Of a stretch of 64,000 nucleotides of DNA, positions 10,612-52,095 are shown piece after piece. Within the stretch, counting starts at the first letter, position 1; each line of letters begins with the position of its first letter. The stretch comes from Rhynchonema sp. JSB1_4. Its lineage: Eukaryota; Nematoda; Chromadorea; Monhysterida; Xyalidae. The translations under genes and the position numbers were made by a program. Under the pieces are notes generated by a model, which ran no database searches, was not told the origin of the DNA, and saw only the letters and a list, made by a program, of their open reading frames with translations. The stretch is from assembly GCA_030248065.1 (NCBI GenBank), contig JASAMV010004520.1, positions 1 to 64,000 of the forward strand. The letters run 5' to 3'.

Positions 10612-11477
10612 GTGGCGACCGCACACATACTAACATTACGATTCGAGGTCTGTTGGTTTCTGCGTTGTCGTAGAGTTATTTTATTTCTTTCTGAAAGAGG
10701 TCTCTGGAAACAGTGCTGGAGGTATACTCTGGAGGGGGGATACCTGCTGTACCGGGCTCGGAGAGGGGGGTACCTACTGTACCAGAGCCGATGGCCTGGG
10801 GGTTATGTACCCAGGGGGGTTTTGGGGGGTTAGGTTTTTGGGTGAAAATTTTTAATGTTTTTATTATGTGTGCAATCGTGTGAAAACGTTGTATTTGCGC
10901 GCGTAGCGCGCGAATTTTGGGTAATTTCAGGTAAAAACCACTGATTTTACACTAATTTTGGCCATTTTGGTCAAAAATTGGCACTTTGGGGACAAAATCG
11001 GGGGATACCTACTGTACCGTACCGGGGTGAAAATCGGGGGATACCTGCTGTACCGTGCCAAACATCGGGAGGATACCTACTGTGCCAGGCGAGGGGTTAC
11101 TGTTACTGTCATAGTATTCCCTAAAATTGAGCCCCCCCCCCCCCAAAAAAAAAATACAGCCCCCCCTAAAAGGGTTCAGTGAAAAAAAATAGAGCCCCCC
11201 AAAAATACAGCCCCCCCCCAACTTGGAATTCCCCGCTTGGGGATCGTAAAGTCAAGTTCTTGTATAAGACACCTTATGTACAACGTTTGTGGTTGAGTAT
11301 ATGATGACGTAAAGCCTTTTATGGAAGATCTGCACCTAAAAACACTCAATAATGACCAGTAGCACCCACACCCAGACAGAACTCCATTTTAGGGGTATTT
11401 TTGGAACATTTTTTGAGATTTTGGGCAGCGAAAAAATACAGCCCCCCCAAAATAGAGCCCCCCCTAAAAGGGGTCAG
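10612..11477. repeat. G-rich transposon-derived DNA, incomplete element
   Basis: A CAGTG(C/T)TGGAGG end near 10712 opens tandem GGGGGATACCTACTGTACC words. These are followed by the GCGCGCGTAGCGCGCG core and then by GGGGGGCTGTATTTTT words from a different family. I could not find the matching right end, so this is probably a truncated element broken by later insertions. The open frames here are repeat artefacts. Confidence 0.6.
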
Positions 11478-11915
11478 CAGTGTAGTTCCTGGTCCGGCGG
11501 GGAAATTAGTGTACCTCCCTACTTTTTCGGAGGGGAAATTAGTGTACCTCCCTGGGGGGAAGGGGGGGGGGAAGACCCAAAATCAGGAAAAAGTCACTTT
11601 TTGAGGTCGAAGACCCAAAATCAGGAAAAAGTCACTTTTTGAGGTCGAAAATTTGACCTATTTTTACCCCTTTTTGGAAAAAATTCTTCAGAACAAGGGT
11701 ATTTTGGCGACTTTTGAGAACATTGACCTAAAAATCACACATTTTAGGCCTAAAAATGCCCATTTTAGGCCTAAAAATGGCCATTTTAGGCAAAAATTGG
11801 GGAAATTAGTGTACCCGGAGCCCGGAGGGGAAATTAGTGTACCAGTGTACCTTGGTCGGGGAAATTAGTGTACCTTAGGGGGGTCCCCCCTCCCCCTCCC
11901 CCAGGAACTACACTG
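11478..11915. mobile_element. hAT-like MITE, CAGTGTAGTTCCTGG family
   Basis: Termini CAGTGTAGTTCCTGG and CCAGGAACTACACTG are flanked by a perfect 8-bp duplication, GGGGTCAG (11470-11477 and 11916-11923). The ends hold repeated GGGAAATTAGTGTACC words; the core is A/T-rich and non-coding. A relative is at 40654-40999. Confidence 0.9.
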
Positions 11916-12407
11916 GGGGTCAGTGAAAAAATACAGCCCCCCCCCCCCTTGTATTTTAGGTTTTACGGTAAAGAACCGTTTTTTATTTTTCGTGGAACAT
12001 TTCGTGAAACCGTTTTTTTTTTCAAGTATTTTCCAGTACTTAAGAACGTAATTTCGAAAAATATAACACTTTCAGTGCAAAATTTGTTCGAAGTGACGAG
12101 AGTGTTCTTGAAGAGTGTTGAAGTCAAGTCGGTCGAAAACACTTGGTTTGCAGTTGCACGCTTTTTGGCCCATTTTGGGCCGGTTAATTTTCGTGCTCGA
12201 GCCAATTTTTCACTAAAATTGAAAACCTCATCAGTTTTGCATTACAATTTTTGGCAAATTTGGAATAAAGTACCGATGTTTTTCCGATTCCGATCAAAAA
12301 CCGAAAAAGTACCCACGGAAAAATGAATGGAAAAGTATTCGGGTCCCGAAAAAAACGGTTTCCGTATCCCCCTCTCCAAGCCCGGTACAGTAGGTATCCA
12401 TCCCCCC

Positions 12408-12876
12408 CAGTGTTGGAGGTGGGGGGGGGGGGGGATTTTGGGGGGGGTAGCCCCCCCCCAGTACAGTAGGTATCCCCCCTCGCCTGGTACAGTAGGTATC
12501 CCCCCCGATGTTTGGCATGGTACAGTAGGTATCCCCCCCGATTTTCACCCCGGTACAGTAGGTATCCCCCCGATTTTGCTTCAAAAGTGCCAATTTTTGA
12601 CCAAAATGGCCAAAATTAGTGTAAAATCAGTGGTTTTTACCTCAAATTGCCACAAATTCGCGCGCTGCGCGCGCAAATACTACGTTTTCACACGATTCCA
12701 CACATAATAAACACATGAAAAATTTTCACCCCAAAACCTAACCCCCCCCCCCCCCAACCCCCCCCTGGGTACATAACCCCCCCCCCCCAGGCCATCGGCT
12801 CTGGTACAGTAGGTATCCCCCCCTCTCCGAGCGCGGTACAGTAGGTATCCCCCCCTCCAGAGTACCTCCAACACTG
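12408..12876. mobile_element. hAT-like MITE, CAGTGTTGGAGG family
   Basis: Termini CAGTGTTGGAGG and CCTCCAACACTG are flanked by a perfect 8-bp duplication, ATCCCCCC (12400-12407 and 12877-12884). Arrays of GGTACAGTAGGTATCCCC words surround a core that includes a GCGCGCTGCGCGCG palindrome. There is no ORF of interest. Confidence 0.9.
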
Positions 12877-13325
12877 ATCCCCCCCACCAGAGAACACTGG
12901 GACGGGATCATAGTAGTGGCTGGGGGGGGTTGGGGGGTTACCCCCCCCCCCCATCTCAGTACTTACCTACCACAAAACCCGAGGGGGGGTTGGGGGGGTT
13001 GAGTACTTACCTCTCACAACTCCAAATCATACCTCTCACAAGCAATTTTATACCTTTTTAAGGCAAAAATCGGTGTTTTTCGACCTTATTTTCCCAAAAA
13101 TCGCGCGCTCGGCGCGCAAACCCACCCATAATACCTATTTTTAGGCGATTTTCGGCGAAAATTTTGAAAAAGTACTATTTTTACCTCATTTTTTGGCCAA
13201 AATTGTATCACAAAAACGGTGTTTTTTTCGCCTTTTTGGGTGACCAAAATCATACCTCTCACGCTTCCGGTCCCAACCCCGCATCATACTTACCTCCCAC
13301 ACATGGCACTACACTGACTGGGACC

Positions 13326-13786
13326 TATACTGGCAGGCGGAAAAAAACCGGTTTTTTTTCCGGAAAAAAAAAACCGAAAAAAAACCGTTTTTTCCGAGAC
13401 CCGAATACTTTTCCATTTATTTTTCCGTGGGTACCTTTTCGGTTTTTGATCGGAAAAATATCGGTACTTTATTCCAATTTTTCCAAAAAATTGTAATGCA
13501 AAAACTGATGAGTTTTTCGATTTCAGTGAAAAATTGGCTCGAGCACAAAAATTAATCGGCCCAAAATGGGCCAAAAAGCGTGTGAACCAAGTGTTTTCGA
13601 CTGACTTCAACACTCTTCAAGAGCACTCTCGTCACTTCGAACAAATTTTGCACTGAAATTGTTATATTTTTCGAAATTACGTTCTTAAGTACTGGAAAAG
13701 TATTTGAAAAAAAACGGTTTTTTTTCGGAAAAAAAAAACGGTTTTTTTTCCACGAAAAATAAAGAACGGTTCTTTATGACAGTATA
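13326..13786. mobile_element. hAT-like MITE, TATACTGGCAGG family
   Basis: Short inverted termini TATACTG(G/T)CA are flanked by the 8-bp duplication CTGGGACC (13318-13325 and 13787-13794). The interior is long runs of A and T around GGAAAAAACCGTTTT-type words plus a mid-section partly shared with 11990-12330. The right copy of the duplication also serves as the left flank of the next element. Confidence 0.82.
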
Positions 13787-13913
13787 CTGGGACCCAATGG
13801 TGTAGCTGGGGGGAGGGGGTGGGGGTCCCCCCCAGGTACAGTAGGTAGGTTGCCGCCCCTCACCTGGTACAGTAGGTAGGTTGCCGCCCTCCCCTGGTAC
13901 AGTAGGTAGGTTG

Positions 13914-14377
13914 CAGCGGTGGGAATCGGGCCGGGCCGGGCCGAGGTTTCCGGCCCGAACGCTCGGGCCGGGCCGGGCCGGGCCGACTTTTCGGAACGTC
14001 GGGCCGGGCCGGGGTGGCCGGCCCGAAAAGGCCCGACATCATCGAATTTAAATAAAAGATCGTGATTTTTTAGACTGAATTTGCCAAAATTTCTCGCGAT
14101 TCTGCAAATTAGTACCGACTTCCTTGATTATCAGGTATTTCTAAACCAAAAAAACAGTAATTTTTGCACCAAAAAAGTGCTTCAAAATATCATCAGAAAA
14201 AGTCGGGCCGAAAAAATCGGGCCGGGCCGGGCCGGGCCGACTTTTTTCCAAGTCGGGCCGGGCCGGGCCGGACTTCCTGGCCCGAACTGTCGGGCCGGGC
14301 CGGGCCGGGCCGGGCCGACCCCCGGACCTCGTCGGGCCGGGCCGGGCCGAGGTAACCCGGCCCGATTCCCACCTCTG
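13914..14377. mobile_element. hAT-like MITE with GGGCC arrays
   Basis: Termini CAG(C/A)GGTGGGAATCGGG are inverted, and arrays of GGGCCGGGCC fill both ends. The flanking 8-mers GTAGGTTG and GAGGTTGC match only with a one-base offset, so the duplication has decayed. Related elements are at 15495-16350 and 63124-63268. Confidence 0.7.
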
Positions 14378-14389
14378 GAGGTTGCCGCC

Positions 14390-15285
14390 CAGTGTTGGAG
14401 GTACTCTGGAGGGGGGATACCTACTGTACCGCGATCGGAGAGGGGGGATACCTACTGTACCAGAGCCGATGGCCTGGGGGGGTTATGTACCTAGGGGCAG
14501 TGGTGTCGTTAGAGGGGGGGGGTTGGGGGGGGGGTTACCCCCCCCGGGTATGGGGTATGGGAAATCGGCCGGGGGTATGGGGTATGGGAAATTTTTCACT
14601 TTTGGAACAAGCACCCCTAAGAAATGACTTTTTGACCCCGAGAAGTACCAAAATTGGCCATTTTTCGTCCGGAAATGTCAAAAATCGCTTGCTGCCGCAA
14701 GAAAACTCTGTTTTAAGCACTTTTTATACCACTTTTGGCACTTTTAGACGATTTTTGGAGTCATTTTTTTCAAAACCCCCACCCTCGGGTATGGGAAATT
14801 TTTGAGTTTTTGGAGAAACCCCCCCCCCCTGGTATGGGAAATTTTTGATTTTTGGGGGTATGTATGGGAAATTTCCCGAAAATTGGGCTGGGTATGGGAA
14901 AATTTCGATTTCTCAACGACACCACTGCCTAGGGGGGGTTTGGGGGGGGGGGTTAGGTTTTGGGGTGAAAATTTTTAATGTGTTTATTATGTATGGAATC
15001 GTGTGAAAACGTAGTGTTTGCGCGCGTAGCGCGCGAATTTTGGGCAATTTGAGGCAAAAACCACTGATTTTACACTAATTTTGGCCATTTTAGTCAAAAA
15101 TTGGCACTTTTGAGGCAAAATCGGGGGGGATACCTACTGTACCCGGGTGAAAATCGGGGGGATACCTACTGTACCATGTCAAACATCGGGGGGGGGGGGA
15201 TACCTACTGTACCAGGCGTCAGGCGAGGGGGGATACCTACTGTACTGGGGGGGCTACCCCCCAAACCCCCCCACCTCCAACACTG
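14390..15285. mobile_element. hAT-like MITE, CAGTGTTGGAGG family, with nested MITE
   Basis: Same termini as 12408-12876, with a perfect 8-bp duplication TTGCCGCC (14382-14389 and 15286-15293). A CAGTGGTGTCGTT-family element at 14498-14927 has inserted into it. The core contains the GCGCGCGTAGCGCGCG palindrome. Confidence 0.9.
14498..14927. mobile_element. hAT-like MITE nested in another MITE
   Basis: Termini CAGTGGTGTCGTT and inverse, with a perfect 8-bp duplication CCTAGGGG (14490-14497 and 14928-14935). It is the reverse-oriented relative of 1861-2276, with the same TATGGGAAATTT words and core. Confidence 0.9.
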
Positions 15286-15494
15286 TTGCCGCCCCACCTA
15301 ACTTTTCACCCAAAACATTCATTTTTGGCTTAAAATTGCATAAAATTAGCATATTTGTCTGCAAATAGGCAAAAAATCGCGCGCGGCGCGCGAAATTAGT
15401 GTTTTAGGCCACATTTTCTTCAGTATTTAGACAAAAAATTTCGGTTTCCAGATGACCCCCCCAAGTGGTATGACCCCCCCCCCTAGCTCGGCTG

Positions 15495-16350
15495 CAGAGG
15501 TCGCAATCGGGCCGGGTTTGGCCGGCCCGGCCCGGCCCGAGCCCCCAAATCTCCGGCCCGGCCCGGCCCGGCCCGACCCGTACCCCCAAACCTCCGGCCC
15601 GGCCCGGCCCGAACCCCCAAATCTCCGGCCCGGCCCGATTTTTTGGCTCAGATTTTAACCCAATTTTTGTCATAATTTTTGCGATTTTTTTGAACCTATT
15701 TTTTGGTTGAAAACAACGGTGTTGCAGGGGTTGGGGGTCCCCCCTAGGTACAGTAGGTAGGTAGGTTGACGCTCCATCCTGGTACACTATGTAGGTCGCC
15801 GCCCGGCGGCTAGTACAGTAAGTTGCGATTTTTGGCTGAAAATGGTATATAAAATCGGTACTTTTCACTCCAAATTGGCGATAAATCGCCGCGCTACGCG
15901 CGAAATTAGGGTTTTAGAGCACATTTTCTTCAAAATTTCGACCGAAAAAATTTTGTTCCCCCTTAGCCCGGCCGGTACAGTAGGTAGGTTGCCGTCCCAC
16001 ATTTTTGGTGGTACTGTAGGTTGCCGCCCCGCCTGGGTAGCCACACCACTGGTTGAAAATACATTGTTTTCCATGAAATGGTCGTCAGATAGAGACAATA
16101 CTGATCACTTACTTGCCGAATCCGTCAGAAATTTTAGTATTTTTGACAAAAAAATCCCCACATTTTCAGTAAAATAAGTCACTTCAGAAGCTTCGGGCCG
16201 GGGTGCCCGGCCCGGCCCGGCCCGACCCTCCAAATCTCCGGCCCGGCCCGGCCCGGCCCGAGCCAAAAGCCCAAAATCGCGGCCCGGCCCGGCCCGGCCC
16301 GGCCCGGCCCGGCCCGGCCCGAGGTCGGGCCGGCCCGATTGCGACCTCTG
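15495..16350. mobile_element. hAT-like MITE, CAGAGGTCGCAATCGGG family
   Basis: Termini CAGAGGTCGCAATCGG and inverse are flanked by a perfect duplication CTCGGCTG (15487-15494 and 16351-16358). GGCCCGGCCCG arrays fill both ends. A further element lies inside at 15714-16051. Confidence 0.9.
15714..16051. mobile_element. Nested hAT-like MITE, CA(A/G)YGGTGT family
   Basis: Termini CAACGGTGTTGC and the inverse CCACACCACTG are flanked by a perfect duplication GTTGAAAA (15706-15713 and 16052-16059). It is a relative of the 13795-16435 outer element, with GTACAGTAGGTAGGTTGCC words and a GCGCGCTACGCGCG-like core. Confidence 0.85.
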
Positions 16351-16588
16351 CTCGGCTGGTACAGTAGGTAGGTTGCCGCCCCGCATTTTGGGTGGTACAG
16401 TAGGTTGCCGCCCCGCCTGGGTAGCTACACCACTGCTGGGACCGAGGTACCGTATTGTCGGAAATAGAACCCCCCCCGTGATGGAGAAAAGGAAAAAAAT
16501 TTCCTTTTGTTTTCATTTTGTTCCCTATTAGGAAAAAAATGAGCAAAAAAATTATTTTCCGAACTCTGGGCTTTCCCGCCATTATGGG

Positions 16589-17155
16589 TGGGCACAATAC
16601 CCAATACCCAATACCAATACCACCCAATACCAATACCAATACGTGTTTGGTATTGGTATTGGGTCTGATTCTGGTATTGGGTATTGGTATTGAAGCTGGC
16701 CTGGTATTGGTATTGGGTATTGGTATTGGGTTTGCGCAAGTATTGGGTCAAAACCAATACCCAATACTAATCCAGAAAAACCCAATACCAAACCAATACC
16801 AAACCCAATACCTGACTCAAAACCCAATACCAAACCCAATACCAACCCAATACCAGGCCAAAAACCCAATACCAAACCAATACTAAGACCAATACCCAAT
16901 ACCCAATACCAATACCAACCCAATACCCAATACTCAATACCAATACCAACCCAATACCAAACCCAATACCAGGCGCTTCAGTAGTATTGATTTGGTATTG
17001 GGTATTGGTATTGGTATTGGGTCTCGCTCGGTATTGGTATTGGGTATTGGTATTGGGTCACCAATCTGGTATTGGTATTGGGTATTGGGTATTGGTACAG
17101 GGTAGGTATTGGTATTGGGTATTGGTATTGGGTGTCAAAAGTGGTATTGTGCCCA
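16589..17155. repeat. Inverted array of GGTATTGGGTATT words
   Basis: Termini TGGGCACAATACC and inverse enclose a dense array of CCAATACC units, then the reverse complement GGTATTGG after about 16980. Open frames rich in repeated dipeptides on both strands are artefacts of the array. A short relative starts near 34897. No clear target duplication was found. Confidence 0.75.
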
Positions 17156-28102: not shown

Positions 28103-28475
28103 GATGATGAGGGTGGGGTACGGTAAAACTTGGACACTGCTGGCTGTTTCGGATATTTTTAGAAAAATCAAGCAATGATCGAATATGCGTGTTGTGCTCA
28201 ACATTCTTACGTGGGTACGGTGTGGTGTGATGTTTCATTGATAACGTTATCACTTAGTGTAAGTTGTTTTAAAATTTCGTTGTGTCACAATTCTCACCGA
28301 CCACAATCGAAATAACAAGCATGCAGTTATGCGTTGCTGGGTTAGAAAAAATTTTAAACAATTTTTTTAGAAAATTTATAAAAACGTTTTTGAAAAGTCT
28401 CAGATTCGGCGAAATTTGACAAAATTATCCAAAAAAACGCGTAAAAAAACAAAAAAATACAACTTTAATTGATAA

Positions 28476-29562
28476 AGGAAGAGAATGACAGCGTGATTCT
28501 CTTGTAAACAATATTCATTCTTTAATTTTTCACCGCATAAACTGCTGTTGTGCGATTTGGTGGTTCCTGCGAGGTACGATCCTCGTGTTTCGCGCAGGCC
28601 AAGCGCGTGGTAGCGCCAAGAGCTACCGTAATCCTGCTGATTTTGTCACGGATTACCAAGAAAATAAGAATATGAATAAAACGTGGCGTCAAAAATTGGC
28701 CGCGGGTGAAATTCATTTCGATACATTGTGTCAAGACTTCAACAGAATCTTGACAGAAGTATTCAAGTTGGACTTGATACCCGAAGAAGTCGCGGCCCGA
28801 ACCAGCGAAATCGTCGAGACATGCCGTACGCGTGCGATGCTTTTCGATGATCTCAAGCCGTTGAAGAAATTGGCGGAATGGCTCGATGTCGAGAGGAGCA
28901 AGAAAAAGGAAAAAGAAGATTGGCTGCAGCGCGTGCAAGAATTGATGAGTTGTGCCGAACAAGCCACCGTCGACTTGCCTGAAGAATGTCCAGCCCCTGT
29001 GCCCGAACAGCCCACGAGCCCCCCTGTCGAATGCCGCAATTGCGAAGAATCGAAGGAAAGTGCCGTGGAACGAGCTGAGAATGTGAAGAAGGTGAAGGAA
29101 CGAAGAAAGAAAAAGAAAATGAAGGAAGGAGAGAAAAGGAAAGGGCGAAAGAAGCAACGTCGTCGGCTGGTGAAACAAGCGGCGAAGAAATACCACATGC
29201 GCAAGAAGCCATTCGATTGTGCCACGACGACGAATGATGACGCGGTCGAATCGAGGACATGGCCGATTGGTGATCTGGCGTTGATGTGCGACGGCGTGAA
29301 GAAAGAAATGGCCGCGCGAGGTCGGGGTGTAAAGAAAAAGAAGAGAGCTGATTTTTAGGCTCGGGTATCGATTGTGTTAGGACGTATAGGTGACAAATGA
29401 TATTGTGATTGAGTGATTTTCCACCATATATCTCTGTAAACGCCCAATTTTCTGTTCACATCCCCTGGTGGAAGGGAGGAGGAAGAGAATGACAGCGTGA
29501 TTCTCTTGTAAACAATATTCATTCTTTAATTTTTCACCGCATAAACTGCTGTTGTGCGATTT
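28476..29562 (+). mobile_element. Mini LTR element 1 (1,087 bp, identical 83-bp LTRs)
   Basis: Two identical 83-bp direct repeats (28476-28558 and 29480-29562) bound a 0.9-kb interior. The flanks are a 4-bp duplication ATAA (28472-28475 and 29563-29566). A TGG lies directly at the inner LTR edge as a primer-site-like start. A polypurine stretch (about 29467-29480) lies just before the right repeat. The only ORF is a lysine-rich protein; no reverse transcriptase or integrase is present. The LTRs start AG and end T. The element is inserted in a CAGGGTTGG-type hAT fragment whose unoccupied sequence is visible at about 59170. It is related to 50086-51506. Confidence 0.88.
28672..29358 (+). CDS. 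Lysine-rich ORF of mini LTR element 1
   Basis: This is a 228-residue protein from the first ATG (28672); in-frame codons upstream to 28585 lack an ATG. An N-terminal acidic/amphipathic part (MNKTWRQKLAAG) is followed by a conserved KEKEDWL motif. After it come an acidic Pro/Cys spacer, a long Lys/Arg/Glu tract and a C-terminus with ARGRGVKKKK. The protein of element 2 (50279-51319) shares the start, KEKEDWL, and the GVKK-M-ARGRGVKKKK end. It fills almost the whole interior of the element. The basic tail suggests nucleic-acid binding, perhaps a Gag-like role; this is inference, and I recognise no known family. Confidence 0.7.
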   Translation: MNKTWRQKLAAGEIHFDTLCQDFNRILTEVFKLDLIPEEVAARTSEIVETCRTRAMLFDDLKPLKKLAEWLDVERSKKKEKEDWLQRVQELMSCAEQATVDLPEECPAPVPEQPTSPPVECRNCEESKESAVERAENVKKVKERRKKKKMKEGEKRKGRKKQRRRLVKQAAKKYHMRKKPFDCATTTNDDAVESRTWPIGDLALMCDGVKKEMAARGRGVKKKKRADF

Positions 29563-29566
29563 ATAA

Positions 29567-30103: not shown

Positions 30104-30682
30104 TAATGTGAAACTGTCTTTGCTTCATAACACTCTTTATTCCAAAGGCACACGTAAACCACGTAACCAACTCTGAAGCTCACAAGCACAAGCACACAGG
30201 AAATAAGCTGATAGAATGTGTGTAGACAAAATACAATGAATCATGTGATATTTAGTAAAGTCACGTTACACTGCTTTGCAATCCAAGGCCACATGGGGAT
30301 TCGTAACTACATCCTCCCCCTTCCGAAGAATGAATCTAAACTAAACTCTGAAAAAGTCAAATTCAATAGATCAATAAAAGTTCAGTCCAATGTCCCATTT
30401 TCTTTCTTCGTCAGAGTCTTTCATTCATTCAAGTTTTCATGCCTTCTTTCTTCTTTCAATGGACTGTTCGTTAGTCGTAGGCGAGAAATGGATAAGCATA
30501 GACGTAGAACTGGATAAGCATAGGTGATAAGGCCAACACTGTAGATACGAGTTACGAAATTGACGTCGAACACGATACGATGCGATACAATACGATAAGC
30601 ACATAGTACAATAAACGAAGTTTGCCCAAATAGCGAACTGGCAAACAAAGAACAACGCCATTCTCTCCCCCTTGAGAGCAAA

Positions 30683-31655
30683 TCACGTCTGCACGACCGT
30701 GGATTTGGCCTTCAACCGCTCCGAACGACGCAACGGTTGTGCTTCCGATTCACTTGACTTTTCGACTTGCGAAACAGCACGTTCGTCTTCCTTCTGCTCT
30801 GTTTCGTTTTCGTGCAGTTCCAGAGGGATCAACTTGCTGATTGATCGCTTCAACAAGTTGCCATTCGATACAACGATTTCAGCTGAACGACATTCCCCGT
30901 CGTCACCATGGAACAAACGTACGATTCTCGCCAATCGCCAACATCCTCTTGGCACATTACCATCGTCCAGCAAAACGACATCACCAACTTGTGGTTTCAT
31001 ATTGACAGCTCCCCTGGGCTGATCAATGCTCGACTTGTAACGTTCTCTCAAACTTGTCAGATATTCGGTCGTGTACAACTTCCATGCACGATCGAGACAT
31101 TTTGATTGCTCAGCCCAATTCCTTTTCACAATCGCCTCGGTTGACATTTCGCCTTCTTCGTAGTCAGAATCGTCACTCTCATCGTTCGCGAAACGAATTG
31201 CACCACATTCACGACCAGGTGCCAGGAAATCAATCGGACGCAACACTTGAAACGACTCGTTGTCCGAATACAAATATGTCAACGGCCTTGAATTCATCAT
31301 CGCTTCGACCTCACACAGCACCGTTTGGATCTCTTCCAGCGTCAGCAATCGTTTGCCAACAGCTGCTTTGATCATTCTCTTCATTATGCCAATCATTCGT
31401 TCAAACATGCCGCCTTTCCATGGACTTAGCGGTGTTTGCATGCGCCATTCGATTTCTTCCTTGGCCAGATAGTCGAGATATTAATCGTTGTCTGGGTTAT
31501 TTGGCCAATTTTCATTCAGGATCTTCTTCAATAATTGGAAGTGCGTGGCATTGTCGCTGTACAAATGTTTTGGTTTTCCTCTTCGGGCAATGAAACGTCG
31601 TAGCACATTGAGACATTTGTCAGTTGACAAGTCAATGGCCGTCTCCAGATGCACA
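30683..31655 (-). pseudogene. BEL/Pao integrase remnant with DUF5641-type tail
   Basis: The remnant starts inside the integrase core (an ARRGKP segment, then a YSDNA motif with the second catalytic Asp). It keeps the Glu in PWKGGMFERM. The tail has VGDVVLLDD and PRGCWRLARI, typical of the C-terminal domain of Pao-type polyproteins. One in-frame TAA interrupts it at 31481-31483, and everything upstream of 31655 is deleted. The polypeptide ends at 30683. It is non-functional as it stands. Confidence 0.9.
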
Positions 31656-31699
31656 TTCTAATCCAAAGGCCGCGGGTTCGACTCCCGCAGGGGATGCCA
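31656..31699 (+). other. 3' half of a tRNA fused to the deletion junction
   Basis: Read on the plus strand, this has a 7-nt anticodon-loop remainder with TCT, a 5-nt stem half, and a 5-nt variable loop. A perfect T arm follows (GCGGG-TTCGACT-CCCGC), then an acceptor 3' strand, a discriminator G and CCA. Spacing matches canonical positions 33-76, and anticodon TCT suggests tRNA-Arg. In element orientation the first about 18 nt are the primer-binding site; the rest exceeds any normal site. Confidence 0.82.
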
Positions 31700-31909
31700 G
31701 ATAATGTGAAACTGTCTTTGCTTCATAACACTCTTTATTCCAAAGGCACACGTAAACCACGTAACCAACTCTGAAGCTCACAAGCACAAGCACACAGGAA
31801 ATAAGCTGATAGAATGTGTGTAGACAAAATACAATGAATCATGTGATATTTAGTAAAGTCACGTTACACTGCTTTGCAATCCAAGGCCACATGGGGATTC
31901 GTCACTACA

Positions 31910-39600: not shown

Positions 39601-41674
39601 GTAGCCGGCGCATTTTTGAATCTGGCCAAGCAAGCTTTAAAAAGAGTAGTCTCATGAGCACGTGGCTGGACTATACATACATACATACACAGATACATAC
39701 GTCTTCCTGTTTTAGTAGTATAGATTGAGGTCTACAGGAGCCACTAACCTCAAGCAGCCTGGAAACTGCCTCCGTAAAAGTTGTTTTAAAGCCGCTGTGG
39801 GACCGCTGCCTACGCCTCTAGAAATTAATGGCTTGATTAAATTTCTTTAATGCCGTTAATTCGAAAATGGTCACCCCTGCGTGACCAAGGCAGCCTCGAT
39901 TCAATCGCCAAATTTGGTTTCATCCATCACTGTTGCAGAAACGTGGTCAAAGCCTTCTACACATCCGGCTATCTGTTCGACGTCCTGACGCTGTTCGGCG
40001 AACTCGACGAGAAATTCCAAGAACATCAGAAATACGCCAAATGGAAAGCCGCCCATATCCATCAATGTTTGAAGAACGGTGAGACGCCGATTGCCGGCCC
40101 GCCGGGAGGCACTGATGATGACGTCACACATGATGCGCTGAACAATTTCGGGCCCGCTGTGACCCTGGACCCGGCGCCTTCCGACCATTCGGACCCACGT
40201 GGTGCTGTGCCCTCGATGGGGCAACCCTTTGTACCACCACCACCACAACAGCAACCAGTGCCTGTGGCAAACATTCCCACTAATGATGGTGAAGACGCGA
40301 ACACGACGACTGCCGGAGGTTGGTCAGTCAGTGGTGTCGTTGAGAGGGTTATAATTAACGCGGCCCTTGTTTTCGGGGGATTGAGGGCTGGCATAGCCGT
40401 GGGGTTAGAGAGGTGCCGGGTGTTGGGTGCCAGAAAAGTGTAGGTGTCGGGTGCCTCCCGATGTCGGGATTTTTGGGACCCGACACCCGACACTTACGGT
40501 TCAAAACATCAGTTTTGCTGAGAGAACATTTTTGAGAGAAAATTTTCTTCGAACCAAATGTTTCCGAAGGCGCAGTGTGTGACATTTTGGTGTTTATTTC
40601 GTGTAAAAAACTTGAATTCAGTAACTTGAGCCAAAAAATTGCACTACTGATGCCAGTGTAGTTTCTGGTCCGGAGGGGGAGATAGCGGACCCCCCGTTTT
40701 TTTCGGAGGGGGAGATAGTGTACCCCCGAGGGGGGAAGGGGGGAAGACCCAAATTCGGGAAAAAGTCACTTTTTGAGGTGGAAAATTTGACCTATTTTTG
40801 CCCCTTTTTGGAAAAAATTCTTCATAAAAAGGGTATTTTGGCGACTTTTGAGAACATTGACATGAAAATCACACAAAAATGGCCATTTTAGGCAAAAATT
40901 GGGGGAGATAGTGTACCCGGAGGGGGGATAGTGTACCACCCGAGGGGGAGATAGCGTACCCGGCCGAGGGGGGACCCCCTCCCCCCAGGAACTGCACTGA
41001 CTGATGCCAATGAGCAAAAATTTGCTTGTTTTTGGTCCAAAAACTAGATGTCGGGTGTCGGCTGTTTTTGCAACTGTCGGGTGTCGGGTACCTCCGATCT
41101 CTAACCCCAGCCATGGCTCGCTCACCCGCCGGTGGGTGTTGGATAACGTAACAGGAGTCAGCTTTGAACGCAGGCGAGAGCAGGCTAAACGCTGCTTATT
41201 CTGCCTGACCTGACCGGGGCGCTTTGTTTATTTGTCCGGTAATGCTACAGTCGAACATGAAGCGTGTTTCGGCGAATTGGTGCTGAGTTTATCAGTAACA
41301 CTGATCAGTATTCCTCCTGGATGTCGGGTGTCGGCACCCAAAAAAGTGTTGGTGTCGGCCGTCCACCCCCCCCCCCTCCCCTGATCCCGATCCCTACCAG
41401 ATGGGGCAGCAGCTTCGCAGCTGTCAGGCCTCGCTGTCAACTCGGTATCGTGCCCATTTAGTATTGCATCAGATAGAACATGCATCGGCGGTGCCTGATT
41501 TGCCACGAACGAAAAGAAATTGCAGGCGGCCCGCAACTGACCACCGCGCACTACAACAAGGCGTCCAAGCTGTGCAAGTATGCCATCAGCGCGATGCAGT
41601 ACGAAGACGCACCGGCAGCGATTGACAACCTCGTGAAAGCGATGCGAGTGCTGCAGACTGGAAAGATTGAGTGA
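33700..41674 (+). CDS. VTA1: VTA1/LIP5 homolog, ESCRT-III/VPS4 regulator
   Basis: Exons 33700-33793, 33871-33965, 38959-39086, 39939-40318 and 41526-41674 join in phase to 281 residues (human about 307). The N-terminal Vta1 domain has IANEHKSRDPAVYYW, FYAVQTGLKI, AHLEEYTLKLFMFADNQDRAG, AFYTSGYLFDV, YAKWKAAHIHQCLKNGETP and a Gly/Pro linker. The middle is Pro/Gln/Asp-rich. The C-terminal VSL helix pair (KYAISAMQYEDAPAAIDNLVKAM) binds the VPS4 ATPase. The family stimulates VPS4 to recycle ESCRT-III at endosomes. Intron 2 is about 5 kb and intron 4 about 1.2 kb, both swollen by transposon and foldback insertions. The ATG at 33700 matches the family start. It ends 475 bp before the RALBP1 ATG on the same strand. 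Confidence 0.95.
34073..34496. mobile_element. hAT-like MITE, TATACTTGCGGG family, copy A
   Basis: Termini TATACTTGCG and CGCAAGTATA with a perfect 8-bp duplication TACTGGAT (34065-34072 and 34497-34504). The ends carry GGAAAAAAACCG words. A CAGTGGTGTCGTT end lies just upstream at 34032. It is in VTA1 intron 2. Confidence 0.9.
34690..34977. mobile_element. hAT-like MITE, CAGTGTAGTGGC family
   Basis: Termini CAGTGTAGTGGCAGG and CCTGCCACTACTATG with a perfect duplication ATTTTGGG (34682-34689 and 34978-34985). The interior has four GACGATAGATAGAT repeats and some CCAATACC units. A related end lies near 12908. Confidence 0.88.
35675..36188. repeat. Nested foldback, AAAGGCAATCTAGCCGC family
   Basis: Outer inverted arms read AAAGGCAATC(T/C)AGCCGCTGATGTCACC. 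An inner palindrome at 35830-36030 has arms of about 90 bp (CACAGGGAATTTTTCTTTGGGCC) around TTCGACCAGCGTAAAAG. ATGTTTC motifs appear on both sides of the inner hairpin. It is in VTA1 intron 2. Confidence 0.85.
36199..36332. repeat. Foldback, CCAACACGAGCCCGATTTCGG family
   Basis: A short element with inverted arms CAACACGAGCCCGATTT and its complement. It is related to 36889-37080, 37453-37646 and 5934-6124. Confidence 0.8.
36429..36705. mobile_element. hAT-like MITE, TAGGGTTAGAG family
   Basis: Termini TAGGGTTAGAG and CTCTAACCCTA with flanks GTTGGGAT and ATTGGGAT (7 of 8). The ends hold CCGACACCCGACATC words. A related element is at about 40400-41109, with similar words near 6482 and 41320. 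Confidence 0.8.
36831..36888. repeat. Palindrome with GATGCGGACTGCGGACATTG arms
   Basis: A 58-bp hairpin whose arms match the palindrome at 38186-38246. Arms of the same type (GCGGACTGCGG) also bound 37377-37963. Confidence 0.8.
36889..37080. repeat. Foldback, AAAGGCAAACTACACCAAC family
   Basis: Inverted ends AAAGGCAAACTAC(A/G)CCAACA and complement, with a central GTGAAACATTCTGACGTG. It abuts the next foldback directly. Confidence 0.82.
37079..37376. repeat. Foldback, AAAGGCAGTCTACGGGAGG family, copy B
   Basis: Inverted arms of about 70 bp, homologous throughout to 19963-20262, including the AAGCTGGAAATTGTCATC loop segment. Confidence 0.85.
37377..37963. repeat. Foldback with GCACTTGCGGACTGCGG arms
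   Basis: Arms CCTGGCCGCACTTGCGGACTG and the complement enclose ATGTTTC on one side and GAAACAT on the other. A second foldback (37453-37646) is inserted inside it. Confidence 0.8.
37453..37646. repeat. Foldback nested in another foldback
   Basis: Ends TAAAGGCAAACTACGCCAACA and complement, with a centre GTGAATGTTTCAC. It is close in sequence to 36889-37080. Confidence 0.82.
38186..38246. repeat. Palindrome with TAGATGCGGACTGCGGACA arms
   Basis: A 61-bp hairpin, a second copy of the 36831-36888 palindrome. Arms are nearly perfect. Confidence 0.8.
39313..39674. repeat. Foldback element, ATAGTCCA(A/G)CCACG family, copy B
   Basis: Inverse-oriented copy of 25319-25672, in VTA1 intron 3. It ends at a short CATA microsatellite. 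Confidence 0.78.
40400..41109. mobile_element. hAT-like element with nested MITE, GGGGTTAGAGAGG ends
   Basis: Ends TGGGGTTAGAG and CTCTAACCCCA contain CCGACACCCGACA-type words. A complete CAGTGTAGTT-family element (40654-40999) sits inside. I could not define a clean outer target duplication. It is in VTA1 intron 4. Confidence 0.65.
40654..40999. mobile_element. hAT-like MITE, CAGTGTAGTTTCTGG family
   Basis: Termini CAGTGTAGTTTCTGG and CCAGGAACTGCACTG with a perfect duplication ACTGATGC (40646-40653 and 41000-41007). It has GGGGGAGATAGTGTACC words and is a diverged relative of 11478-11915. Confidence 0.9.
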
Positions 41675-48100: not shown

Positions 48101-51100
48101 CAGGCGAGTTGCCTGAATGCGCAGGGAAAAATTGGGCTGGTCCACATTTGATTTTGTTCCCGGATGTTCCTCTTGAAGGGCATCTCCTGGCCGCATACTG
48201 AACGTTAGACCTCCGGTGTGTTTGACTTTTATGACGCCTTGACCACTGTCTAAACACATGCGAGGTTTGAAGGGGGTGTGAAATGCGAAAGGCCCCCTTT
48301 ATGGAAAGACTGTTCAATTGGAATATTTGTTTGATAATATTATCTGCACAGGCCACGCGTCTGTTCACTGACATGCCCATTCGCAAATATGTGAGCCCGA
48401 TACGCGCCGTGTCGGACGATATCAGCAGGACATTGCCGCAATCGCGAAAGTTGGTCGCAGCCGCTTTTCAATTGTTTTTTTTTGAAATTGCACAAAATTC
48501 GTTTCATACGACAGTGGCAGTGTGCATGAGATAAGAATGTTTCTATATATTAATATAAGATTCGCTGGGAAAATTGGTCGCTGCTCCGGAACCTAATTCC
48601 GAAATGTAAACTAACACCGAACGAAACGTTTTTCTCAGCGGATAAATAGACTGAGCCCTCATGGAATGAACATCCCACTGACTGGCCCCGTAAAATGTAA
48701 AAAAGTAATAATATTTATAAATGGCACCAAAACGTTCTATGCCACAAAATTCTCACTGCAGCGCCCTGGAGGAAGAACTGCGCAAACAGAATTCGCTACT
48801 CGAACAATTACACCAAGAAGTGGCTGCTCTGGCTCAGCAGGAGCACACGGACGACGCGAAAATGCAGCAGATCTGGGACGTACAGACGATAATCACCCAG
48901 TTGAAACGGAAGGTGCGTTGCGTTCTGCTCGATTATATTTTTCATTATTGTTGTTTTTCAAAAAGGTGGATAAAAGCCTGTAAAAACGTGCTTTGTTTTT
49001 TTTTCAGCTGAAAACGATGAAAGTCGATGAAACAACGAGTGCGCCCGGCTCGTCCCGATCGACAAACGCTGCTGGTTGGTGCGCGGGGGATGTTTTGAAC
49101 AGTCTGCTTTATCTTTGAACATTTGCCAACTTCATTTAAACTTGGCATCCCTCCATCCTCGTTATTGTGAAGTGATCGCGAGTCGTCAACGCTTTCGGTA
49201 ACGCCCTAAGAAAATGGATATTTATTCACTGTGACTAAACTCAACAGAAGGAGGAACGTACATGCTGTACATTTAAAATGAAGATTAGGCAACCGCGTTA
49301 TTGCTGTAATTTCGACCAGCCGAAAAAAGTTGTTTCCCCGTGTGCCGTGAGGAACTTTTGCGCTGGTCGAAAGCGCGGAAACAAAGAAATCGCAATGCAT
49401 CACTCAATCCATTTTGCGCCCCCCCCCCCCCGAGTCAGAAATGCACACCAGCCGTGGGGTAGGTGGACACGGTACAAAAGTGCCTGTCGACATCAGACGA
49501 TTCACCTTGCAGGATCGGGCACGGGCCCGTGCGTTGAGATGTTCGAAGAGAAACAGCTGATCGCGTTCAACGCCGAGCTCGACAAACAGATCGGGGAGGA
49601 GCAGAGAGCGATCGCCGTGTTGATTCGGGAGATGCAGTCGATCGACGTCGATGGATTGGTGGGTTATGGGGAGCGCGCTTCCTTTATTGTTGGTTGGTTT
49701 ATTGCTCTCAGTGACGCATAAAACCATGCACGTAAATTAGTGATAGAAGCACAGTTACAAGACCGGGTGGGACAATTACGGAAATGAAAATAGTTACAAC
49801 ACTGGTTATAACAAAACCACAGCAAATAAAAGCTACAAAAGCGCCAAGGAGAGAGAAAGATCACGGACATCAGGACAGATCACAGGACATGTTAACAGAA
49901 CTGAAAATTATGCATTAATCCTCGTCCTCGTCAAACGACAAATGTCGGGCTCAGAGGGCATATTGGGATCAGTCCATATTGTCAACAGTCCAGAACAGAT
50001 GGTGGGTTGGTGATTGTCCGTCACTTCCTTTATTGTTGTTGGCTCACTCGCAGACTAGCCCAGTGTATTTTCGGCCCAAAATTAGACTGGGAACCTGACA
50101 CGTTCGTGAAACCGTAACTTTATGAATAATAGAATGATGTGTTGGTTGGCAATACAATATCGGGGCGATATTGCTACTCCTTCCCCCGCCAAGGAAGCCT
50201 ATGGACAGAAACGGATTTACAGGAAAACAGGCGGTTACGACAGAAAATCACCTTATCACTCTTCTTATTACTCATGGCCTAAACACAATCAGAACCGCAG
50301 CTCAAAATCATTTTTTCTTTTTTTTTCTTTACTCCTCGACCTCGCGCGACCATAAGCTTCTTTACATCGTCGATTCTCAACGTGGCACAATCGATCAGCA
50401 ACGTCACTGGTTTGGTCGCGTGGCTGTCGGTTGGCGTCGTTGTCGTGGCGCCACGTTGCACACGTTTCTTCGACCGGCTCTGGCTCGCCTTTGGTTTCTT
50501 CTTCGGACCTTTCTCCCTTCGTCCTTTGTCCGACTTCCTTGATTCCTTTGTCTTCTTTACCTTCATCTTCTTTTTCTTCAATTCCTTTCTGTTCGCCTTC
50601 TTTTCTTTCTTCAAAACATCACGGCACCATTCAACGATTTCCTCTTCTTTTGCTAGAACGCTCGGCCAAACACTTGATCGCTCCTCTTCCACATTCTCTT
50701 CTTGATTTTCAACTTCTTTTACTTCTTTATTTTCACATTCTTTATTCACTTCTTGATCCTCTTCTTCGTTAAATTCTTTTTCCTCTTCTTTTTCTTCAAC
50801 GACCGCAATCATCAGCTTCGGGCGGGACACACGGGTTTTCACACAAAACTTGTTGAACTTCGACGAACAATTCACAATTATTGGCTCCTCAATAACTGGT
50901 TTCGGGTCCGGTCTCTTCATAACACTCTTCACAAACTTCAACCAATCTTCTTTTTCCTTTTCCTTCATTTTCTCCAGGCCCAACAACTTTTCAATTTCGC
51001 TCAAACTTTCTAAATCTTCCCACACAAACGTCCTTCCTTGACTGAACATCAGCGGCAACTCACACATGAAACCTTTCGTGCATTCTTGACTTTCAATCTG

Positions 51101-52095
51101 ACCATAAAATTCACAACACACCTCAAAATAGTGGGCCATACCGGGGTCGTTTCGGCTTCGATTCATTTCAATTTTCATAACCTTCATAATTTTTTCGGCG
51201 ATCATCCGACTTCCCGACTCTTCAATTTCTTTAAATAATTCCACAACATCTTCTTCATTCATTTTCAAAACGAGCCCGTAATTCTTCGCCGCAAATAATT
51301 TCAATTGCCACATCTTCATTTTTCCAAATTCTTCAATTTTCTTGGGCCACCAACAGCAACAGCAACGCGCTTGGCACGCGGAGCCACGAGGATCGTACCT
51401 CGCAGAGTCCGCCACTGCGAACCTGGCACGTGCGTGAAACCGTAACTTTATGAATAATAGAATGATGTGTTGGTTGGCAATACAATATCGGGGCGATATT
51501 GCTACTTTAGGTTCCAGTTTTAGTTGAAATAAAAAAATGCTAAAATCCATGATAAACACTTGGATTCGCACCCATTCAGCGCGCAGCTGCGCCAGCCCGG
51601 TCGGTGTCAACCACACAAAAACACGAAAAAATGTTTATCAGGTGATAATCGCACGTGTGATATCTCTAGTGACAGTCACATGATCGGAGGACCCATGATT
51701 TCGGTCGCCGTGAATGGTCTTAATTCTAAATGGAAGTCGAATGTCGACCTGTGTCTTATTTACTCAGCTGTTTGTTTTGTAAATTTCACATTTAAGAAGA
51801 CATTTAATTGCAGCAATCGCAATCGCTACGTCGTCCCACGCCCGTCTCGAGTGGTGGGCCTGACTGGAAAGCACTGTGTTTGGCTGAACAACAACGACAC
51901 GAACAGTTGGTCGACGAGATCATCGCGGAAAAGTGCAAAATCGCCAGATTGCGCGCCGAAATCGAACTTTTTGTCGTCACGCACAAGTTCGCGCCGTCGC
52001 CTGCACCCGCGGTGGCTGCTGCGGCCACTCAGCAGCAACCAAACACTCAGACTAGTAATGTTTCAAACGCTAATAATGTCAGTGTGAGATTGTGA
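42149..52095 (+). CDS. RALBP1: RALBP1/RLIP homolog, Rho GAP and Ral effector
   Basis: Thirteen exons: 42149-42167, 42235-42325, 44275-44429, 45650-45766, 45836-45933, 46194-46296, 46778-46929, 47388-47504, 48352-48449, 48762-48912, 49008-49074, 49513-49658, 51814-52095. All phases agree, giving 531 residues (human about 655). An N-terminal Lys-rich region is followed by a RhoGAP domain from about residue 90 (RPVFGQPLSV, HVPVVVRLCIDYV, EGIYRIS with the Arg finger near residue 136, LLKTFLREMPEHIL). The Ral-binding coiled coil follows (EEELRKQNSLLEQLH, WDVQTIITQLKRKL), then two more coiled-coil segments and a Gln/Ala-rich tail. RALBP1 links Ral GTPases to Rho/Cdc42 control and endocytosis. Intron 5 uses a GC donor. 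Introns hold repeats and, in the last, an antisense mini LTR element. Extra 5' exons are possible. Confidence 0.93.
44795..45208. mobile_element. hAT-like MITE, TATACTTGCGGG family, copy B
   Basis: Perfect 8-bp duplication ACTTCTGA (44787-44794 and 45209-45216). Homologous throughout to 34073-34496. It lies in RALBP1 intron 3. Confidence 0.9.
47855..48312 (-). repeat. Dispersed 0.45-kb repeat, copy B
   Basis: Inverse-oriented homolog of 20536-20992. It contains GTGAAACATTCTGCG and TTGAAACATTTAGC. It ends a few tens of bases before RALBP1 exon 9, within intron 8. Confidence 0.75.
50086..51506 (-). mobile_element. Mini LTR element 2 (1,421 bp, 93-bp LTRs)
   Basis: Direct repeats of 93 bp (5' LTR 51414-51506, 3' LTR 50086-50178, minus orientation) differ at only a few positions. 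A 4-bp duplication CTAA in element sense reads TTAG on plus at 50082-50085 and 51507-51510. The LTRs start AGTAGC and end CAGT, and the final T overlaps a TGG primer-site start. A polypurine stretch GGCGGGGGAAGGA lies just inside the 3' LTR. A lysine-rich ORF fills the interior; there is no pol. It is inserted in antisense in the last intron of RALBP1. Confidence 0.88.
50279..51319 (-). CDS. Lysine/glutamate-rich ORF of mini LTR element 2
   Basis: This is a 346-residue protein from ATG 51319; the open frame extends upstream through the LTR but that part is unlikely to be translated. It starts MKMWQLKLFAAKNYG, like MNKTWRQKLAAG in element 1. It shares a FVWEDL segment upstream of KEKEDWL, and a GVKK-tract C-terminus VKKLMVARGRGVKKKK. 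Between them is a long acidic Glu/Lys region predicted to be coiled coil or disordered, then a basic Lys/Arg/Ser segment. It is about 120 residues longer than the element 1 protein, mostly in the acidic region. Function unknown; Gag-like RNA binding is a guess. The reading frame is intact, which suggests selection or recent activity. Confidence 0.7.
   Translation of the reverse strand: MKMWQLKLFAAKNYGLVLKMNEEDVVELFKEIEESGSRMIAEKIMKVMKIEMNRSRNDPGMAHYFEVCCEFYGQIESQECTKGFMCELPLMFSQGRTFVWEDLESLSEIEKLLGLEKMKEKEKEDWLKFVKSVMKRPDPKPVIEEPIIVNCSSKFNKFCVKTRVSRPKLMIAVVEEKEEEKEFNEEEDQEVNKECENKEVKEVENQEENVEEERSSVWPSVLAKEEEIVEWCRDVLKKEKKANRKELKKKKMKVKKTKESRKSDKGRREKGPKKKPKASQSRSKKRVQRGATTTTPTDSHATKPVTLLIDCATLRIDDVKKLMVARGRGVKKKKEKMILSCGSDCV

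Follow-up and report, generated by a model that had tools for sequence, protein, structure and literature searches.

Short, pol-less LTR elements of the nematode Rhynchonema keep a single protein-coding frame under purifying selection

The genome of the nematode Rhynchonema sp. JSB1_4 contains at least three related families of short LTR elements in which the only ORF is conserved by selection; no copy carrying pol was found among the family copies examined. We interpret them as non-autonomous LTR elements that use enzymes supplied in trans and whose ORF product aids their own propagation, most likely as a stand-in for Gag, a reading to which we assign a probability of about 0.6. That they are LTR elements at all is solidly established by their structure. 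Two of them lie in what we call the window, the whole stretch of 64,000 nucleotides that was analyzed (positions 1–64,000 of contig JASAMV010004520.1). The window is part of one contig, and the searches covered the 204-Mb assembly of 5,747 contigs.

The first element occupies positions 28476–29562 on the plus strand, and the 1,087-bp layout that a preliminary description had ascribed to it is indeed present: LTRs that are 100% identical, ATAA on both flanks, a TGG-starting stretch at the edge of the 5′ LTR, a purine run upstream of the 3′ LTR and a single ORF of 228 codons, with no pol (Table 1). The second element, at 50086–51506 on the minus strand, is built on the same plan: its LTRs share 96.8% identity, the duplication is CTAA, and the ORF encodes a protein of 346 amino acids. 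However, the two are not sister copies, as had been supposed, but members of two of at least three related LTR families. Their proteins were also said to share three blocks. BLASTP recovered two of these, the ARGRGVKKKK tail (21 of 41 positions identical) and the KEKEDWL block (21 of 62); the supposedly common start had no BLASTP match, and a loose M..W..KL.A resemblance is seen there in the multiple alignment only.

Table 1. Positions of element features and of one related empty site in the window
Feature	Positions	Strand
Element 1, target duplication, 5′ copy (ATAA)	28472–28475	
Element 1, 5′ LTR, 83 bp	28476–28558	+
Element 1, putative primer site TGGTGGTTCCTGCGAGG	28558–28574	+
Element 1, leader motif, present in each of the three families; hairpin drawn at ~28569–28586	28568–28588	+
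Element 1, ORF, 228 codons + stop, type 1a, basic C-terminal tail	28672–29358	+
Element 1, polypurine tract	29470–29479	+
Element 1, 3′ LTR, 83 bp	29480–29562	+
Element 1, target duplication, 3′ copy (ATAA)	29563–29566	
Element 2, target duplication, 5′ side (CTAA on the minus strand)	51507–51510	
Element 2, 5′ LTR, 93 bp	51414–51506	−
Element 2, putative primer site TGGCGGACTCTGCGAGG	51398–51414	−
Element 2, leader motif	51384–51404	−
Element 2, ORF, 346 codons + stop, type 2	50279–51319	−
Element 2, polypurine tract	50179–50190	−
Element 2, 3′ LTR, 93 bp	50086–50178	−
Element 2, target duplication, 3′ side (CTAA on the minus strand)	50082–50085	
Single CTAT, related empty site of family-3 copy L079 (inserted elsewhere in the genome)	40792–40795	+

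The window also holds other repeats. At 30104–31909 (minus strand) there is a third, unrelated non-autonomous LTR element with 208-bp direct repeats that show one visible difference, a 5-bp duplication (ATAAT) and a 265-residue frame with DUF5641. DUF5641, a domain typical of animal BEL/Pao elements, suggests an animal genome; the element is BEL/Pao-derived. A 28-nt stretch just inside it resembles the complement of a tRNA 3′ end plus T-arm. Positions 10700–16970 are densely packed with short dispersed and tandem repeat families that have a common GGTACAGTAGGTA-type core.

Genome-wide DNA searches returned at least 70 matches to element 1 (40 of 80 candidates scored) and at least 61 to element 2 (40 of 98 scored). 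We examined 78 stretches around DNA matches, with four further stretches added later. In the first set, a script recorded 63 entries bearing the leader motif. LTRs were paired in 52 of them and unpaired in 11, one of the latter (L002, minus strand) showing the L010 copy a second time. These 52 paired-LTR copies, which show that the direct repeats are not peculiar to the window, divide into LTR families of 29, 17 and 6 members (families 1, 2 and 3); the family-3 copies L091 and L093, from the later stretches, stand outside these counts. Most paired copies measure 0.9–1.5 kb and their LTRs ~80–94 bp, the small size typical of TRIMs. By length limits, the ORF is intact in 25 of the 52, and one further copy, L049, has a frame of 386 codons that was missed by this length rule. 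One family-3 copy (C4180:2702–5339) has ~2.6 kb between its LTR matches, about twice the usual length, and may contain a nested insert or extra sequence.

Allowing up to three mismatches, the genome contains 95 occurrences of the 21-nt leader and none of a reversed control, a number far beyond chance. Twelve of these matches are spelled differently and resemble an unrelated repeat; they were set aside after one of them (L090) had been read. Among the remaining 83, 75 lie within or adjoin matching element DNA or coding sequence. At C4246, C5734 and C2759 the match beside the leader is the LTR and leader itself, and the two that were read, C4246 and C5734, are broken copies. The eight other matches comprise four family-3 LTRs with leader (C283, C4557, C5588 and C5275), a fragment (C2598) and three places without an adjoining element match (C166, C4196 and C1035). 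In viral contigs the leader had no match. As for the places set aside, L090 (C404:14940–17440, the only one read) has long open frames without an LTR pair and reads as a repeated gene or element of undefined kind.

A simple rule could set the ends of 43 of the 52 paired-LTR copies (the other nine did not yield to it), and 35 of these 43 are flanked by an exact 4-bp target duplication, while eight are without identical flanks. All 35 duplications have TA in the middle (NTAN). Because L025 and L026 have both flanks in common, the 35 duplications amount to 34 distinct sites; L035/L038 and L058/L060 likewise share flanks. When joined flanks were compared with the examined loci in search of DNA without the insert, related empty sites with exactly one target copy emerged in five cases. 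The empty site of L079 is in the window itself (Table 1), that of L056 in L087 and that of L057 in L074, with one base of the target different; those of L049 and L008 are in repeats adjoining the element itself. Two other candidates were discarded, L082 because it sits in a short tandem repeat and L085 because it is too diverged for counting.

These sites bear directly on the idea, also raised in the preliminary description, that the ORFs are simply host genes. Some contigs are duplicated and three pairs of copies share flanks, as might be expected of an assembly artefact. Nevertheless, LTR-flanked insertions with 4-bp duplications at 34 distinct sites, together with the empty sites, refute a host gene family, an assembly artefact or a chance repeat for the group as a whole, and we regard the probability of any of these as negligible.

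Several features are those of reverse transcription. The median LTR identity is higher within copies than between them in family 1 (0.988 vs 0.919; 22 of the 29 copies), family 2 (0.989 vs 0.926; 17 copies) and family 3 (1.0 vs 0.963; 6 copies). The purine tract upstream of the 3′ LTR, where a polypurine tract belongs, is alike across the three families despite their differing LTRs. At the other end, the stretch adjoining the 5′ LTR starts with TGG, varies between copies and falls into four types, of which TGGTGGACCTGCGGGG recurs in family 1 (L005, L019), family 2 (L060, L065, L066, L070, L071) and family 3 (L093). When families 1 and 2 were placed on trees by their downstream sequence, copies with this type came out scattered, each beside copies of the usual type, except for L070, which groups with L071; these two look like one site seen twice. 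The change spans ~17 nt and the bases after it are nearly unchanged, which fits the footprint expected if the primer site had been copied from another tRNA. However, L058 and L060, which by their flanks occupy one insertion site, differ in primer site; a switch of primer is thus not the only possible origin of the change, which gene conversion or assembly error can also produce. Taken together, the duplications, the empty sites, the LTR identity within copies and the recurrent primer-site type point to reverse transcription and retroviral-type integration.

Searches for a matching primer tRNA were negative within their scope. A T-arm pattern had 16 matches across the genome, none of which fits these primer sites; seven of the 16 are occurrences of the 23-nt primer-site string of the BEL/Pao-derived element, in the window and at six other places. 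A Ser/Leu tRNA pattern matched 24 places, and of the two that were read one was a clear tRNA-Leu, with no fit. The tRNA pattern for the TGGTGGACCTGCGGGG type had no match across the genome. Rfam at its gathering threshold detected no ribozyme, tRNA or 5S RNA in the whole window, and at E ≤ 1 nothing in 28476–28700; a single weak match to a bacterial sRNA in 51300–51510, far under its cut-off, was dismissed. Folding of the leader RNA is ordinary for its composition (z from −0.9 to −1.3). The LTRs start with an inverted repeat whose sequence differs from family to family (28476–28505 and 51477–51506 in the window), and this hairpin folds better than simple shuffles in most LTRs of families 1 and 2 and weakly or not at all better in family 3.

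The encoded proteins, 228–367 residues long in intact copies, have N-terminal parts of four types (1a, 1b, 2 and 3). A KEKEDWL-like block is present in types 1a, 2 and 3, and a C-terminal VKK...ARGR.VKKKK tail in the aligned members of all types. Types 1a and 1b belong to one and the same LTR family, and their N-terminal halves look unrelated in alignments; moreover, the DNA of type-1b copies matches element 1 only at ~1–169 and 522–1087. Judging from these alignments, the N-terminal half has been swapped within one LTR family. Across eight proteins (two of each type), the pI is 10.7–11.4 over the last 110 residues; over the first 130 it is 4.4–7.8 in types 1a, 1b and 2 and ~9.2 in type 3. None of the eight contains a CCHC pattern.

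Purifying selection acts on the ORF in each of the four types. Pooled per type, with upper bounds from a codon bootstrap and with copies picked by length, a possible source of bias, pN/pS in frame was 0.565 for type 1a (4 copies; upper bound 0.74) vs 0.813 and 1.027 in the other two frames, 0.398 for type 1b (7 copies; 0.53) vs 1.072 and 1.078, 0.437 for type 2 (7 distinct of 10; 0.51) vs 0.961 and 0.944, and 0.416 for type 3 (2 distinct of 4; 0.59) vs 0.930 and 1.429. Choosing full-length copies removes stop codons, which alone would hardly be expected to produce a pN/pS of 0.4. Constraint is stronger on the N-terminal half than on the other half in types 1b, 2 and 3 (median dN/dS 0.22–0.30 vs 0.46–0.51) and about equal on both halves in type 1a (0.53 and 0.54). 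Thus, what the preliminary description anticipated, namely many copies with distinct 4-bp duplications and conserved ORFs, is what the genome contains (34 sites; pN/pS 0.40–0.57).

Elements devoid of enzymes have thus retained one basic protein, apparently because of its importance to the element that encodes it. Some copies (L006, L036, L045, L070 and L086) lack a full ORF and have identical or nearly identical LTRs and target duplications, as TRIMs would if the ORF were an unneeded passenger, such as a gene once captured. This is very improbable, given that each of the four protein types is under purifying selection. Shortened copies such as L045 (477 bp), L066 and L070 (both ~930 bp), with LTRs 98.9–100% identical and duplications intact, were either deleted after insertion or mobile without a full ORF. 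L045, which combines identical LTRs and a duplication with the lack of any ORF of at least 100 codons, suggests that the protein can be dispensable in cis.

What kind of protein might this be? In a collection of 5.8 billion proteins, neither the type-2 protein (8,000 best word-sharing candidates scored) nor a type-1b protein had a match at E ≤ 0.001; 50 relatives of a BEL/Pao-type ORF from the window were recovered there. Nine family proteins compared with Pfam hit no family over the cut-off and gave weak sub-threshold matches only, so that the GAG domain characteristic of TR-GAG elements was not detected. PDB searches at E ≤ 0.01 with the type-2 protein, an alignment of types 2 and 3 and a type-1b protein were likewise empty. 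The element-2 protein, modelled by AlphaFold from its single sequence, gave a structure too poor for fold comparison (mean pLDDT 44.3); its first 134 residues are mostly helices, at a pLDDT too low to carry weight. A diverged Gag fold is possible. The lack of a Gag match and of CCHC, together with the constant ARGRGVKKKK-type tail, would also suit a nuclear- or chromatin-targeting factor acting in import or integration, with packaging left to the donor's Gag. Since no targeting is seen past the NTAN preference, we consider such a factor improbable.

The elements have no enzymes of their own, and the preliminary description proposed looking for a pol-bearing relative with the same LTR ends and primer site. 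No pol-bearing relative appears among the matches listed for the leader, reverse transcriptase (RT; 150 of 822 candidates scored) and the integrase zinc-binding domain (150 of 198 scored), which occurs in both Ty3 and BEL elements; in a comparison of these places by eye, no leader-bearing copy among the matches listed encloses an RT or integrase match. Several candidates were rejected. At C458, same-strand integrase and RT matches are present, yet past the 3′ LTR of the element; at C2392, C3802 and C3726 the RT or integrase matches are ~10–20 kb distant; and the two best RT matches listed, L088 and L089, read as LINE-type ORFs. A search with the family-3 LTR (40 of 78 candidates scored) found no LTR pair of full-element size. 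Three family proteins searched against the whole genome matched 87, 66 and 60 places, the largest open frame over these matches being 528 amino acids. On the other hand, integrase matches in long open frames are common in the genome, which makes an enzyme donor plausible.

These results also help to weigh a reading that overlaps with our own, that the elements are TR-GAGs proper: internally deleted descendants of an autonomous LTR element that is now extinct or unassembled, with a protein that is its diverged Gag. Two LTRs, one ORF and no pol make up the TR-GAG plan as given in the accessible text of PMC8704663, and an acidic-to-neutral front followed by a basic tail is found in three of the four protein types. 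Against this, neither a pol-bearing copy nor a long fused frame came to light, Pfam returned no Gag match, and the split into three LTR families with four N-terminal types speaks for a long history of their own. We therefore consider descent by deletion rather unlikely.

Thus, of the family envisaged in the preliminary description, the multi-copy, coding and pol-less LTR elements are borne out by 52 paired-LTR copies, NTAN duplications and purifying selection; a Gag-like nature of the protein found no support in the Pfam, PDB or CCHC searches, and no donor of enzymes stood among the matches listed. We still infer trans-acting enzymes, a type of donor and a Gag-like job, a role that fits the layout and is the likeliest reading. 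Under it, the enzymes acting on these non-autonomous LTR retrotransposons of ~1.1–1.5 kb would come in trans, probably from a complete LTR retrotransposon in the same genome; they would reverse transcribe the element RNA from the primer site adjoining the 5′ LTR and insert the product at NTAN sites with a 4-bp stagger. That this donor is of Ty3 type is our guess from the 4-bp duplications and the LTR ends. The ORF product would aid propagation of the element itself, likeliest as an RNA-binding, particle-forming or RNA-escorting Gag stand-in in which a very basic C-terminal tail follows an N-terminal module that can be exchanged. We suggest more tentatively that the elements may be a miniature lineage rather than a deletion derivative, having its own Gag replacement to package or escort its RNA and using the enzymes of unrelated LTR elements.

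Non-autonomous LTR elements are usually viewed as passive parasites of a full element. One selected protein kept without any enzymes points instead to a function that is not easily obtained from others. What a Gag-like protein must do can be asked of natural material spanning three LTR families and four N-terminal types; the N-terminal exchange within one LTR family and the recurring change of primer site likewise serve as natural experiments, on template switching and on the choice of primer. Should the protein prove not to be Gag, it would represent an unrecognized route by which an RNA parasite secures its own transmission. No coding, pol-less LTR family of animals with a protein of no recognized kind was noticed in the literature searched; one may still be in print.

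Ty3/gypsy elements of the gypsy/17.6 type make 4-bp duplications at TA-centred sites. The present elements resemble them in their TA-centred 4-bp duplications and in the family-3 LTR ends (AGT...ATT), but have no pol or env, and family-1 LTRs start with AGG. CM-gag of Culex is said, by its title, to be a repeated mosquito element with a gag gene only; the likeness, a gag gene alone, is drawn from that title.

Among TRIMs, which have also been reported from bivalves (PMC6934838), the ant element PbTRIM has 4-bp duplications, mostly ATAT, and internal domains without coding capability (PMC3532108), and ta-TRIM of tapeworms has no ORF of more than 120 codons (PMC4558846), as far as the accessible text of these reports goes. 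Both are small LTR elements with a primer-binding site and polypurine tract, and PbTRIM shares the 4-bp duplications; unlike these non-coding elements, ours keep an ORF under selection. Helenus and Ajax, according to the available part of PMC10886601, are TRIMs with tRNA- or 5S-derived LTRs. They too are small, with primer site and polypurine tract, and animal Helenus has 4-bp duplications; in contrast to Helenus and TRIMp3, the LTR and leader stretches of the window elements have no tRNA or 5S match, and the elements are coding. Non-coding elements without a known parent are described in the accessible portion of a Culex survey (PMC3286476), and Ectocarpus has been surveyed as well (PMC12477816). 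Plant TR-GAGs, in the text available of PMC8704663, have LTRs, one GAG ORF and no pol; movement was seen in Arabidopsis for one, which encodes a GAG of 562 residues and resembles an autonomous element. Two LTRs, one ORF and no pol are common to both groups. However, TR-GAGs as described there have a recognizable GAG and a similar autonomous element, whereas here the protein (228–367 residues) is without a known relative, no such element is among the matches listed and the LTRs are ~80–94 bp. TR-GAG and TRIM are thus the nearest known kinds, neither definition being fully matched, and what is new is a selected protein without known relatives, swapped N-terminal halves and very short LTRs.
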